This document shows, one piece after another, positions 10,836-44,878 of a stretch of DNA of 64,000 bases (the stretch's first letter is position 1; each line of letters opens with the position of its first letter). The stretch comes from Candidatus Rokuibacteriota bacterium (lineage in GTDB: Bacteria > Methylomirabilota > Methylomirabilia > Rokubacteriales > CSP1-6), in assembly GCA_003220225.1 (NCBI GenBank), contig QHRU01000046.1, positions 1 through 64,000 of the forward strand, read 5' to 3'. The notes beneath the pieces are model-generated. The model searched no databases. It was not told the DNA's origin and saw only the letters and a list, made by a program, of their open reading frames with translations. The translations under genes were made by a program, and so were the position numbers.

Positions 10836-11576
10836 GATCTCCGCGAAACTACACAGCGTGATCCCGAGTGCCGCGACGGCGGTGCGGGCCGAGGGCGTGC
10901 CGAGACCGATCATCTCCGTCTCGCGCTGGCGCCCATAGCGGCTGTACGCGAGGTCCGCGTCGAACCAGCCGGGATGCGTCATGAATTCCGAGAGGCCCTC
11001 GGGCAGCGCGCGCAGATTGGCGAGCGTGGTGGCCGGCGACCAGTAGGCGCCCGGCCCCGACTCGCCGAAGAAGTGATCCGGCGTGCGGAGCCCAGCCGAG
11101 CGCGCGCGGCCGCGCGCGGCGGCGTCCTGGCTGCGCACCGGCACGCCCAGCCCGCGCGCGACGTCCAGCACGACCTCGCGCACCGGCGGATGCAGGCCGA
11201 CGTGATGGTGCGTGTCCAGGTGCGTGGGCGCGCGGCGAAAGACCCGGCGGAACTTCGCGACCTGCGCCTCGATCTCGGCCCGCACGTCGCCGGCGCGGGC
11301 CCGCGCCGCCGCATGGCGCGCGTCGCGCACGAAGCGGCCGCCGCCGGCCACGAGCGACTTCCCTCGCGTCAGCGGCGAGCCGAGCGTGAGGTTGACGTGG
11401 AGCCCGACCCCGAGCCCGCTGTCGAGGAGGCGGGCCACGAGGCCCCGCTCGAGGTCGGCGGTCACGAGCACCGTCGTGCTCGTGACGATGCCGTGGCGAT
11501 GCGCGGCCAGGATGCCCTCGCTCACGCCGCGCGTGAGGCCCCAGTCGTCGGCGTTGACGATGAGGCGGCGGCTCAC
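10833..11576 (-). CDS. ChbG/YdjC/HpnK-family carbohydrate deacetylase
   Basis: The 247-residue protein shows the YdjC family metal-site signatures: NADDWG near residues 8-13, GLHVNLT and HLDTHHHVGLHP near 117-128. ChbG removes an acetyl group from chitooligosaccharides and HpnK acts in hopanoid biosynthesis; either role is possible. Next to a ROK kinase, a sugar-related role is more likely. The GTG start at 11576 overlaps the stop of the upstream methyltransferase (GTGA). Neighbours on both sides overlap by 1-4 bases, which indicates translational coupling. Confidence 0.8.
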   Translation of the reverse strand: MSRRLIVNADDWGLTRGVSEGILAAHRHGIVTSTTVLVTADLERGLVARLLDSGLGVGLHVNLTLGSPLTRGKSLVAGGGRFVRDARHAAARARAGDVRAEIEAQVAKFRRVFRRAPTHLDTHHHVGLHPPVREVVLDVARGLGVPVRSQDAAARGRARSAGLRTPDHFFGESGPGAYWSPATTLANLRALPEGLSEFMTHPGWFDADLAYSRYGRQRETEMIGLGTPSARTAVAALGITLCSFAEI

Positions 11577-12262
11577 CGCGCGCGTCCCTCGATCATCAGG
11601 CGCTCGACGGTCGCCGGCCGCCCGGGCGGCAGCGCCGCCTCGCGGTCCATCGCGCGCAGGTGCGCGATGCGCTCGTGGCCGATCCGCGGGAACGACTGCG
11701 TCTCGCGCGCGAGCACCGAGGGCACGAGCCCGGCCGCCTCCACCTTCGCCAGGGCGGTCTTGATGCCGAGGAAGTCGAAGATCGTGAACACGAGCCGGCC
11801 GCGCGGCGCCAGGTGCGCGGGCGCGCCCGCGATGATGCGGTCGAGCAGCGCCCAGCCGTCGGAGCCGCCGTTGTCGGCCGCCGCCTGCGCGTCCTCGCGG
11901 TCGGCGCCCGGCGGCGTCGGCATCTGCGGCGGGTTGCTGCACACGAGGTCGAAGCGCTCGCCCGCCACCGGCGCGTAGCAGTCGCCCAGCCGCGCGTCGA
12001 CCTCGACGCCGTTCAGCGCGGCGTTCACGCGCACGGCCGTCACCGCCGCCGGCACGACGTCGGTGGCGACGACGGCCGCGCCCGCCCTGGCCGCGAGCAC
12101 GGCGGCCAGGCCGAGACCGGCGCCGATCTCGAGCACGCGCTCGCCCGCGCGGACGCTCAGGTGATGGCAGAAGAACCTCGAGCCGGCTTTCGGCGGCTGC
12201 ACGATGTCGGGGACGCGGAAGAGGCAGTCGCGCCAGGCGTAGAAGAGGACGCCGTCGTCCAC
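11573..12262 (-). CDS. SAM-dependent methyltransferase (HemK/RsmC-like fold)
   Basis: The 229-residue protein has the class I methyltransferase motif I (VLEIGAGLG, about 43-51), an acidic motif II (VVATDVVPAAV) and SNPPQMPTP near 106. The NPP-type motif is characteristic of enzymes that methylate an exocyclic or side-chain amide nitrogen on a base or glutamine. The substrate is unknown. GTG 12262 overlaps the preceding stop as TAGTG. It may modify a translation component, but nothing here proves that. Confidence 0.75.
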   Translation of the reverse strand: MDDGVLFYAWRDCLFRVPDIVQPPKAGSRFFCHHLSVRAGERVLEIGAGLGLAAVLAARAGAAVVATDVVPAAVTAVRVNAALNGVEVDARLGDCYAPVAGERFDLVCSNPPQMPTPPGADREDAQAAADNGGSDGWALLDRIIAGAPAHLAPRGRLVFTIFDFLGIKTALAKVEAAGLVPSVLARETQSFPRIGHERIAHLRAMDREAALPPGRPATVERLMIEGRAR

Positions 12263-12573
12263 TACGTGCCTTGCACGCGCCGGAAGTAGAGGCGGATCGC
12301 CTCCTTCAGCTGCGCGCGCGCGCCGGCCGAGGACTGTGCGTCCTCCAGCTGGTCGATCTCGATCTGGAGCGGCACGCCCTCGCGCTTGACGCCGTCCAGC
12401 TCGGCGGTCAGCGCGCAGCGCTCGTCGGACTCGGTGAACACGAGCTTCGCGCGCTTGAAGCTGGCCTCCTCGCGCGCGAGCTGCTCGACGGTCTCGACGA
12501 TCACGCGCTTGAACGCCTCCTGCTCGCCGGCCGGCACCGTCGAGAAGGCGGCGGTCAGGTTCACCTCACTCAT
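12262..12573 (-). CDS. conserved-looking hypothetical protein, 103 residues
   Basis: A compact, charged, soluble protein with predicted helical ends and a central beta-rich part (AKLVFTESDERCALTAEL). It has no signal peptide or membrane span. I do not recognise the family. The ATG overlaps the last codons of the UGA-containing AhpD-like gene by 8 bp, and its stop overlaps the methyltransferase start. It therefore sits in a translationally coupled chain, and the arrangement suggests a role together with its redox neighbour. Confidence 0.65.
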   Translation of the reverse strand: MSEVNLTAAFSTVPAGEQEAFKRVIVETVEQLAREEASFKRAKLVFTESDERCALTAELDGVKREGVPLQIEIDQLEDAQSSAGARAQLKEAIRLYFRRVQGT

Positions 12574-12808
12574 TCCAGACCTTGAGGATGTCCGCGTGGG
12601 TCTTCGCCGCGTTGGCGCGGATGGCGAAGGAGATCGCCTCGCGCAGCTCGTCCTCGGTCGCGCCGCTCTGCCTGGCGCCCGCCAGGTCGCGCTTCGCTCA
12701 GTGGGTGTTGCCGGCGGCGAGGTTGGCGGCGAGATAACAGAGGTAGGCGGTTTTGGGATCGAGCACGCCCTTCTTGAACTTCCACGACGCGATCACCCGC
12801 TCTTCCAT
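12566..12808 (-). CDS. probable selenoprotein: AhpD/CMD-like 80-residue protein with in-frame UGA (Sec37)
   Basis: ATG 12808 follows a strong GGGAGGTG. The frame runs 36 codons, meets TGA at 12698-12700, and continues as unmistakable family sequence to a second TGA at 12566. Before the UGA it reads LDPKTAYLCYLAANLAAG-NTH; after it, AKRDLAGARQSGATEDELRE. In AhpD/carboxymuconolactone-decarboxylase relatives the ungapped equivalent is LAAG-CxxC followed by xxxHLxxAxxxGAT, so the UGA sits exactly on the second, catalytic Cys and the first Cys is Asn. A perfect hairpin begins 11 nt after the UGA. The final stop overlaps the next gene's ATG, so full readthrough preserves coupling. Expected role: thiol/selenol redox, such as peroxide reduction. 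A nonsense mutation is the alternative. Confidence 0.7.
12671..12686 (-). promoter_or_regulatory. candidate bacterial SECIS hairpin for the AhpD-like gene
   Basis: The RNA stem CCUGGC / GCCAGG (6 perfect pairs) closes a GGGC loop. The loop begins 17 nt after the UGA, and its first two bases are G. This fits the published description of bacterial SECIS elements (apical loop 16-37 nt after UGA, G in the first two loop positions). Confidence 0.6.
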
Positions 12809-12837
12809 GACGCACCTCCCACGGTTTTCCGCCCGAC

Positions 12838-12933: not shown

Positions 12934-14586
12934 TTAGTGTCCGGCGGCCCAGGCCATACCGAACTGCTCGAGGCCGGCCTCGAGCCCCTTGGGCGTGACG
13001 CGGATGGCGATGGGCCGCGCGAAGTTGAGCGTCGAGTACGACTCCTCTTTCGGCACCACGGTGTGGCCGCGCTTGGCCAGCCCCGCCAGCGCCGCCTCGC
13101 CCACGCGCGTGGAGACGAGCACGTCGCCGCCCTCCGTGTGCAGCCGTGGCGCCTCGACCGCCTGCTGCAGCGAGCCGCGCCCGTCCACGAAGTTGGCGAT
13201 GACCTGAGGTATCGCCGAGACGATCGCGCGGCCGCCCGGCGCGCCGATGGTGAGGTACGGCTTGCCGCCTTTGAAGCCGAGCGTCGGCACCATGTTGACG
13301 AGCCCGCGCTTGCCGCCGGCGATGGAGTTCGCCTTGCCGGGCTCCGGATCGAACCAGATCATCCCGTTGTTGAGCAGGATGCCCGTCCCCTTCACCACCA
13401 CGCGCGACCCCCAGAGCGAGACCGCGGTGTTGGTGAGCGAGACCATGTTGCGCTGCCGGTCGATGGCGCCGACGTGGGTCGTGCAGTCGAGCGTGCGGCC
13501 GCCGCGCGGCCGGCGGGCGCCGCTGCGCCCGGTGCGGATCTCGTGCGCGGCCGCGCGCGCGTGCTCGCGCGAGACGAGCCGTTCCCAGGGCGCCTTCACG
13601 ACGGCGGCGTCTCCGAGGTGCTCGAAGCGGTCGCGGAATGCGCGCTTGATGGCGCAGGCGCGCAGGTGCAGACCCTCCACGCTCGTCCAGCCAACCTTCG
13701 CCGAGGGGAACTCGGCGAGGATGTTCAGCGTCTCGAGCGCGGTCACACCGCCCGTTGCTCCAGGTGAGAACGCCAGGTCCAGGCCGCGATAGCGGCCGGT
13801 CACCGGCAGCGCCACCCGGACCTCGTAGGCGGCCAGGTCGCGCTGCGTGATCAGCCCCCCGCCGCGCACCATCTCCTGCTCGATCGCCTGGGCGATCGCG
13901 CCCCGGTAGAACGCGTCGGGCCCCTCTTTCGCGATGAGGGCCAGGCTCTCGGCCAGATCGGGGTAGCGCACGAGGTCGCCGGGTTGCATCGACGGTGGCC
14001 GATGGATCGAGCGGCCGTGGCGCAGGTAGGCGCGCGCCGTCTCCGGAAACGCCGCGAGCTCTTCGAGGTGCTGCGCGTGCTTGAGCGCCAGATACCAGTC
14101 GGGCACGAGCCCTGACCGCGCGATCTCGATGGCCGGCGCCATCACGTCGGCGAGCGTCATCGTCCCGTAGCGCTCCACCGCCAGCGCGAGCCCCGCCACC
14201 GAGCCGGGCACGGCCACCGAGCGATGCCCGTAGACGTTGGCCTGACCCTCGACGTTCGGCCACGGGAAGAGCGCCTCCGAGACCCCGCCGATGGTCTTGT
14301 ACATCATGGCCTGCGCGCGGAGCGGCGCCATGCCGTTGAAGTCGAGGGCGACCGTCTCGCCGCGCTTCGCGAGGTGCACGAGCATCGTGCCGGCGCCGGC
14401 GATCGTCGACATGAACGGCTCGACCACCGTCATCGCGAACGCGGTGGCCACGGCCGCGTCGACGGCGTTGCCGCCGCGCGCGAGGATGCGCGCGCCGACT
14501 TCGGCGCCGCGCGGGTGCTCGGCGACGACCATCCCGCGGGAGGCCAGCGAGGTGCGCTTGGTGACGCTCAGCGTGGATCGGATCAT
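12934..14586 (-). CDS. ggt: gamma-glutamyltransferase family protein
   Basis: The 550-residue protein starts with GMVVAEHPRGAEVGARILARGG-type sequence typical of the large subunit. The autocatalytic cleavage site and nucleophile is the first Thr of TTHVGAID, near residue 366, where E. coli GGT has TTHYSVVD. Glycine-rich substrate-pocket motifs follow (NNGMIWFDP, GAPGGRAI). No signal peptide is evident, so this is the GGT-like cytoplasmic type used for glutathione or gamma-glutamyl compound turnover, or a cephalosporin-acylase-like hydrolase. ATG 14586 overlaps the lipoprotein stop (ATGA), indicating co-translation. Confidence 0.85.
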   Translation of the reverse strand: MIRSTLSVTKRTSLASRGMVVAEHPRGAEVGARILARGGNAVDAAVATAFAMTVVEPFMSTIAGAGTMLVHLAKRGETVALDFNGMAPLRAQAMMYKTIGGVSEALFPWPNVEGQANVYGHRSVAVPGSVAGLALAVERYGTMTLADVMAPAIEIARSGLVPDWYLALKHAQHLEELAAFPETARAYLRHGRSIHRPPSMQPGDLVRYPDLAESLALIAKEGPDAFYRGAIAQAIEQEMVRGGGLITQRDLAAYEVRVALPVTGRYRGLDLAFSPGATGGVTALETLNILAEFPSAKVGWTSVEGLHLRACAIKRAFRDRFEHLGDAAVVKAPWERLVSREHARAAAHEIRTGRSGARRPRGGRTLDCTTHVGAIDRQRNMVSLTNTAVSLWGSRVVVKGTGILLNNGMIWFDPEPGKANSIAGGKRGLVNMVPTLGFKGGKPYLTIGAPGGRAIVSAIPQVIANFVDGRGSLQQAVEAPRLHTEGGDVLVSTRVGEAALAGLAKRGHTVVPKEESYSTLNFARPIAIRVTPKGLEAGLEQFGMAWAAGH

Positions 14587-44471: not shown

Positions 44472-44878
44472 CGGGCGGCGCTCTCCTCGGCCGGAAACGG
44501 CTCGCCGCGCTCCCCGAGCACCTTCGCGTAGACGTCGAGCGCCTCGACCACGACGGGCATGCCGCCGTAGGTCACCTGCTGGAAGATGACCTCGGCCACC
44601 TCCTGCCGCGTGGCGCCGACGTTGAGCGCGGCGTGGATGTGCGCGCGCAGCTCGTTGTGGCGATCGAGCACGGTGAGCGAGGCCACCGCGCACAGCTCGC
44701 GCTGCTTCTGCGAGATCACCTCGCGGCTGTAGAGGGCGCCCGCGAAGAACATGGAGAGCTGGCGGGCGAGGTCCTTGTCGAACTTCTTCCACTGCTCGTA
44801 GCCGGCGCCGCCCTTGAGCGTGTGGAAGAGCTTGCGCGCGGTGTCGCGGGTCTTCTGCTTGAGCTCCGTCTCGTTCAT
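44468..44878 (-). CDS. carboxymuconolactone decarboxylase (CMD)-family protein
   Basis: The 136-residue protein has the CMD fold (LFAGALYSREVISQKQRELCAVASLTVLDRHNEL, then HIHAALNVGATRQEVAEVIFQ). The AhpD-type CxxC is absent, so it resembles gamma-carboxymuconolactone decarboxylase rather than a peroxidase. It lies between an alpha/beta hydrolase and a phosphatase with 4-bp overlaps on each side. With the hydrolase it recalls the PcaC-PcaD pair of aromatic degradation, though no other pca gene is present. Confidence 0.84.
   Translation of the reverse strand: MNETELKQKTRDTARKLFHTLKGGAGYEQWKKFDKDLARQLSMFFAGALYSREVISQKQRELCAVASLTVLDRHNELRAHIHAALNVGATRQEVAEVIFQQVTYGGMPVVVEALDVYAKVLGERGEPFPAEESAAR

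Follow-up and report, generated by a model that had tools for sequence, protein, structure and literature searches.

How is a UGA codon read when it falls inside an 80-codon frame, and what would the resulting protein do? The question arises in a Candidatus Rokuibacteriota genome (GCA_003220225.1), a 6.0-Mb environmental assembly of 167 contigs that is closest, among named genomes, to Candidatus Rokubacteria/Rokuibacteriota assemblies; the window, as the whole analyzed stretch is called here, comprises positions 1–64,000 of contig QHRU01000046.1. The gene occupies 12566..12808 on the minus strand, with codons 1–80 at 12808..12569 and a TGA stop at 12568..12566, and a further TGA stands in frame at codon 37 (12700..12698, minus strand). 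A Shine-Dalgarno sequence, GGGAGGT (12820..12814, minus strand), lies 5 nt upstream of the ATG, and GGAGG-like sites precede the start codon in most orthologues. The original prediction had described this frame, its strong ribosome binding site, and the TGA at codon 37; all were recovered, and the minus strand, which it had not given, is added here. Translated with TGA as selenocysteine (Sec, U), the frame reads MEERVIASWKFKKGVLDPKTAYLCYLAANLAAGNTHUAKRDLAGARQSGATEDELREAISFAIRANAAKTHADILKVWNE, and we refer to the product by its motif as the NTHU protein.

The usual gene order at these loci is gamma-glutamyltransferase, selenoprotein, 103-aa protein, and HemK2-like methyltransferase. The gamma-glutamyltransferase of the window (12934..14586, minus strand; PF01019, 398 bits) is the upstream neighbor, as it is at about two thirds of orthologous loci, and it is a neighbor only, with no part in Sec decoding. 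Downstream, the 103-aa gene (12262..12573, minus strand) begins with an ATG at 12573..12571 that produces an 8-nt overlap with the selenoprotein frame; its product matches no family in Pfam or NCBIfam. Two genes downstream of the selenoprotein gene lies a HemK2/MTQ2-like methyltransferase (11573..12262, minus strand), assigned through TIGR00537 (99.6 bits, cut-off 87) and synteny, and this operon order is kept in most relatives. The 103-aa gene occurs in 52 of the 57 family genomes, and at the loci read a HemK2-like methyltransferase is always near it. The overlap between the selenoprotein stop and the next ATG had been put forward as a sign of operon coupling that only the readthrough product preserves. 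The overlap itself stands; however, it is found in most relatives rather than all, and the 103-aa gene also exists without the selenoprotein gene, so operon coupling is supporting evidence and not proof. An Rfam search of the window returned no matching family, and a PHROGs search returned no match. Elsewhere in the window (44531-44770, minus strand), a further CMD-family match free of TGA lies inside a 406-codon open frame.

The NTHU protein matches the Pfam CMD family (PF02627) at 38.5 bits, above the gathering cut-off of 23. An AlphaFold2 model is all-helical (pLDDT 91), with U37 as the third residue of helix 35–47 and Cys24 in helix 18–31. The leading Foldseek matches in the PDB are all CMD/AhpD proteins, at a probability of 1.00 and a best E-value of 0.028, which is weak and comes from a short protein. 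The predicted fold is thus that of the CMD/AhpD core. Alignments to a paralogue (AGCTSU) and to solved CMD/AhpD structures match N34 to the first Cys of the CxxC motif and U37 to the second, in agreement with the ungapped placement originally proposed. The unusual NxxU reading also withstood comparison, as the motif is NTHU in 37 of 38 orthologous sequences and TTHU in the other, and not the catalogued CxxU. As in AhpD of M. tuberculosis and PA0269, the motif sits in a helix-turn-helix and a His precedes the second chalcogen position (His132 in AhpD, His36 here). The AhpD relay consists of Glu118, Cys130, His132, Cys133, and His137 (PMC3141380); in the NTHU protein, the places of Glu118, Cys130, and His137 are taken by variable residue 22, Asn34, and Asp41, and that of Cys133 by Sec37. 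Since three of the five catalytic positions differ, all three of them required in AhpD, AhpD-type peroxidase chemistry should not be assumed. The earlier description as AhpD-like is therefore kept for the fold and the Sec position, but most of the AhpD catalytic residues are missing and an AhpD-type peroxidase function is not assured.

A genome search across the family to which this genome belongs recovered orthologues in 40 of 57 genomes and in 22 of 24 genera. Codon 37 is TGA in every one of the 41 loci that cover it, in 40 genomes, and none of the 41 carries a Cys codon there. In a codon-by-codon reading of 38 of these sequences, TGA-37, His36, and Cys24 are each invariant (38/38), and Asn34 is replaced once, by Thr. 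Protein identity across the TGA is 78–96%, while synonymous sites vary. The corresponding position in AhpD-like relatives is Sec or Cys, so the comparison of homologues that the original prediction had called for turned up no non-redox residue. On this comparative basis, UGA-37 is almost certainly read as Sec. The NTHU gene was found in no plasmid and in none of 38 other genomes of the phylum, where the matches were limited to the CTSU-type paralogue and weaker relatives. A search of 84,980 species genomes, of a kind that finds close relatives only, gave 18 close matches, all from Rokubacteria/Methylomirabilota. The selenoprotein subfamily, as predicted from these sequences, is lineage-restricted.

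The genome encodes machinery for Sec decoding. A tRNA-Sec with anticodon TCA and SelB (372 bits) lie less than 5 kb apart on contig C5, and SelD is present (335 bits) with one in-frame TGA of its own. No SelA was identified: a single frame adjacent to SelB was tried, without a match. The genome contains 19 CMD-family matches, nine of them flagged with one TGA (some of these were checked), which suggests a large AhpD/CMD selenoproteome. Seven further flagged matches lie at C97:66686, C51:73357, C128:44260, C1:17455, C96:12730, C162:5274, and C57:12298. Those on C97 (NCFDU) and C51 (ACHYU) have hairpins 19–20 nt past the UGA, and the match at C128:44260 was not confirmed. A second small CMD selenoprotein (G000:C108:32484-32681; locus L083, 604-900, minus strand) has a CTSU motif and a near-perfect SECIS with the stem GCUUCGC/GCGAAGC. 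This CTSU paralogue is widespread in the class and scores 50.9 bits against NCBIfam model NF041047, for which the cut-off is 110. Locus L090 (G003:C330:6891-7079) carries two TGAs in a ULPU (UxxU) motif and a CTSU-type hairpin.

Downstream of UGA-37 lies a candidate bacterial SECIS hairpin (12671..12686, minus strand), with a 6-bp stem CCUGGC/GCCAGG and a GGGC loop (12680..12677) that starts 17 nt past the UGA, exactly as first described. GGGC is the loop of this genome and a minority form; most relatives have AGGU, which uses the codons GCA and GGU, otherwise uncommon here. When the 37 nt following the UGA are folded, the minimum-energy structure contains the stem in all 38 orthologues. The published bacterial SECIS model gives an apical loop of 3–9 nt on an upper stem of 4–16 bp, a G in the first two loop positions, a UGA-to-loop distance of 16–37 nt, and a minimum free energy of −7.5 kcal/mol or lower (PMC13188914). 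Here the loop has 4 nt and the stem 6 bp; the loop is AGGU, AGGC, GGGC, or GGGG in 38/38 sequences; the distance is 17 nt; and the energies over 40 nt are −22.0 kcal/mol for the gene in the window and −14.9 kcal/mol for orthologue L028. The SECIS prediction suggested at the outset thus agrees with the published model. The spacing of 17 nt is shared by the NTHU, CTSU, and ULPU genes and compares with 17–18 nt in E. coli fdhF, the sequence of which was confirmed against E. coli genomes.

Taken alone, the folding energy of this one sequence lies within chance (z = −0.92 over 61 nt, GC-rich). What goes beyond chance is the comparison: the hairpins in 38/38 sequences, the frozen stem codons, and the compensated pairs in the paralogue. 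Stem codons 41, 42, 45, and 46 show zero changes in 38 sequences, even synonymous ones, compared with a mean of 5.7 changes per codon for conserved codons elsewhere in the gene, as counted on a gene tree built leaving out codons 38–50. Arg46 is AGG in 38/38 sequences, whereas the other conserved Arg codons of the gene (40, 56, and 64) are always CGN; AGG accounts for 25 of 223 Arg codons in neighboring genes. The CTSU paralogue keeps the register of the hairpin with the stem GCUUCGC/GCGAAGC, in which two base pairs are replaced on both sides and still paired, and the ULPU paralogue shares that stem in the same columns. Compensated cells number 16, whereas shuffles give 5.5 and sliding the partner leaves none; these pairs represent a single subfamily-level contrast rather than many independent events. 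By this comparison, the putative SECIS is under selection at the RNA level.

These data bear directly on other ways to read UGA-37. As an ordinary stop it would end a 36-residue peptide, and the downstream similarity would belong to a decayed or separate gene. UGA is indeed a normal stop in this genome, and it terminates the selenoprotein gene itself in about nine of the 38 sequences. However, purifying selection acts strongly on residues 38–78, in the same frame, across the 38 sequences, no new start is conserved past the UGA, the truncated product would be without half of the CMD core, and the hairpin codons are frozen. We consider an ordinary stop very improbable, and the codon-change counts, with zero changes in the stem codons, refute it in practice. 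An even smaller probability attaches to a sequencing or assembly error in which TGC, TGT, or TGG was misread as TGA, a failure that the original prediction had itself named as fatal. An environmental assembly in 167 contigs leaves some room for such errors, but the same TGA recurs at 41/41 loci in independent assemblies of 22 genera, and its presence there excludes this explanation. Genome-wide reassignment of UGA to another amino acid, e.g., Trp or Gly, would account for the several genes of this genome that read through TGA. The presence of tRNA-Sec (TCA), SelB, and SelD argues against it, as does the fact that the internal TGAs occupy Cys/Sec positions in redox families, with hairpins following at 17–20 nt. 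UGA still terminates genes, the selenoprotein gene included; as a common stop it refutes reassignment, the probability of which we regard as negligible.

The best overall explanation, which we hold with high confidence, is an 80-residue CMD/AhpD selenoprotein with SECIS/SelB decoding and a probable single-selenol role. In this mechanism, termination at UGA-37 would be prevented by the downstream hairpin, which would recruit SelB with Sec-tRNA(UCA) to the codon. After Sec insertion, translation would run on to the natural stop that overlaps the start of the next gene. Functional Sec insertion had been anticipated in the original prediction, and TGA conservation, the fit to the SECIS model, and the Sec machinery of the genome all support it at the sequence level.

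Presence of the gene is only weakly associated with tRNA-Sec among the 57 genomes, in which no tight correlation was found: 35 of the 40 gene-bearing genomes yielded a tRNA-Sec, versus 11 of 17 without the gene. The five remaining gene-bearing genomes probably gave no tRNA-Sec match because of incomplete assemblies and strict filters. The region preceding the 103-aa gene was inspected in eight genomes that do not have the selenoprotein gene (L104–L111; genus g6, part of g7, and G034), and most of these genomes have tRNA-Sec. The gamma-glutamyltransferase directly abuts the 103-aa gene at seven of the eight; at the eighth (L111) the gene is absent and no gamma-glutamyltransferase neighbor was identified. 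No Cys version was found at this locus in any of the eight relatives. As the gene is missing cleanly between its neighbors, it behaves as an optional cassette in an otherwise stable gene order, lost whole and not converted to Cys.

Among known systems, the GSU3128 family (NF041047), listed as a "Distant AhpD homolog" with CxxU (PMC13188914), is likewise a small stand-alone CMD/AhpD core of ~80 aa with Sec at the second motif position. Its model is the best-aligned single-domain model in NCBIfam (residues 2–77 of 81 on model positions 4–78 of 84), although the scores of 42.8 bits for the NTHU protein and 40.2 bits for orthologue L028 fall below the curated cut-off of 110. The NTHU protein differs from GSU3128 by Asn in place of the first Cys and by an extra invariant Cys24. 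The CTSU paralogue of the same genomes is 43–48% identical to the NTHU protein, with a UGA at the equivalent codon and a hairpin in the same register, but it has a canonical CxxU, a Val at the place of Cys24, and a different stem sequence; its range extends to further families of the class, while NTHU was found in just one. The AhpD domains of ArsM_AhpD_UU (NF041537) and MduS (NF045649) are a related module with Sec (41–45 bits locally), but they are C-terminal parts of methyltransferase fusions with CxxU, in contrast to the stand-alone NTHU protein. Thermus thermophilus TTHA0727 (PDB 2cwq) is the best sequence-profile match in the PDB (E 5e-6) and ranks first by fold. Like the NTHU protein, TTHA0727 has no Cys at the first motif position (Ser70) but retains a chalcogen residue at the second, though as Cys rather than Sec and in a longer protein; it has been judged not to be a peroxidase (PMC3141380). 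The Sesn-A domain of Sestrin2 is an AhpD-like fold that also works with a single chalcogen residue (PMC4674687), but of the two motif Cys it has only the first, the reverse of the NTHU protein with its Sec.

With regard to function, a single-selenol oxidoreductase is the probable assignment. The selenol would sit at the N-terminus of the third helix, where the AhpD CxxC has its second, helix-bound Cys, with invariant His36 just before it at the place of M. tuberculosis His132 and with Asn34 replacing the first Cys. Sec would, we infer, be oxidized by a peroxide or disulfide substrate and then resolved by an external thiol or by Cys24. Peroxidase activity specifically is plausible but, on balance, doubtful. 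That the invariant Cys24, in the same subunit or a neighboring one, acts as the resolver is a tentative proposal, somewhat less probable again. Within one subunit, a Cys24–Sec37 bond appears unlikely because residue 22 holds the AhpD Glu place facing the site and residue 24 lies ~200 degrees round the helix; a partner subunit or an external thiol would be favored.

Sec might instead be present for a purpose other than peroxide or disulfide chemistry: the single selenol could bind a soft metal or an electrophile, or its role could be structural or regulatory. Metal binding is known from many selenoproteins of other families, and the NTHU protein has Asn for the first motif Cys and does not conserve the Glu/His relay positions of AhpD. 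Sec usually has a redox function, however, and here it stands beside an invariant His36 with an invariant Cys24 in the same protein. The closest solved sequence, TTHA0727, with Ser for the first Cys, is taken to be without peroxidase activity (PMC3141380), which would fit a non-redox role. Against this, the single-Cys AhpD-like domain of Sestrin2 is an active alkylhydroperoxidase, with the Cys being the first of the motif (PMC4674687). We regard a non-redox role as unlikely, and a single-selenol oxidoreductase remains the preferred assignment.

Reports of AhpD-like and CMD-like selenoproteins go back to 2005 (PMC1088965), and the original prediction had noted that AhpD-like ones are described. 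In the 119-family selenoprotein table of a 2026 catalogue, all AhpD/CMD entries are CxxU and the NxxU motif is absent (PMC13188914). A 2026 groundwater study, as cited in that catalogue, reports a Methylomirabilota assembly with 63 selenoprotein genes, and the NTHU family may already be listed in this selenoproteome. No NCBIfam model (June 2026) scores over its cut-off on the NTHU protein, so standard annotation is expected to truncate it at residue 36. Judged by its sequence conservation, this is a genuine, lineage-restricted AhpD-like selenoprotein variant with NxxU, new relative to the catalogue and family library checked.

The host lineage, the Rokubacteria, consists of uncultured soil and groundwater bacteria. 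In it, Sec is kept absolutely without the usual Cys partner, and genomes that do not have the gene show clean absence with no Cys form. One possible picture, which we advance tentatively, is an AhpD-fold enzyme without a neighboring Cys that would work through one selenol, with the resolver either moved 13 residues upstream to Cys24, in the same or a neighboring subunit, or supplied by a dedicated partner, and that is retained with Sec or lost, never converted to Cys. With the same hairpin built from different stems in two paralogues, the locus is an unusually clean comparative case of a SECIS, and the NxxU motif offers a concrete test case for the role of Sec when an adjacent Se–S bond is impossible.
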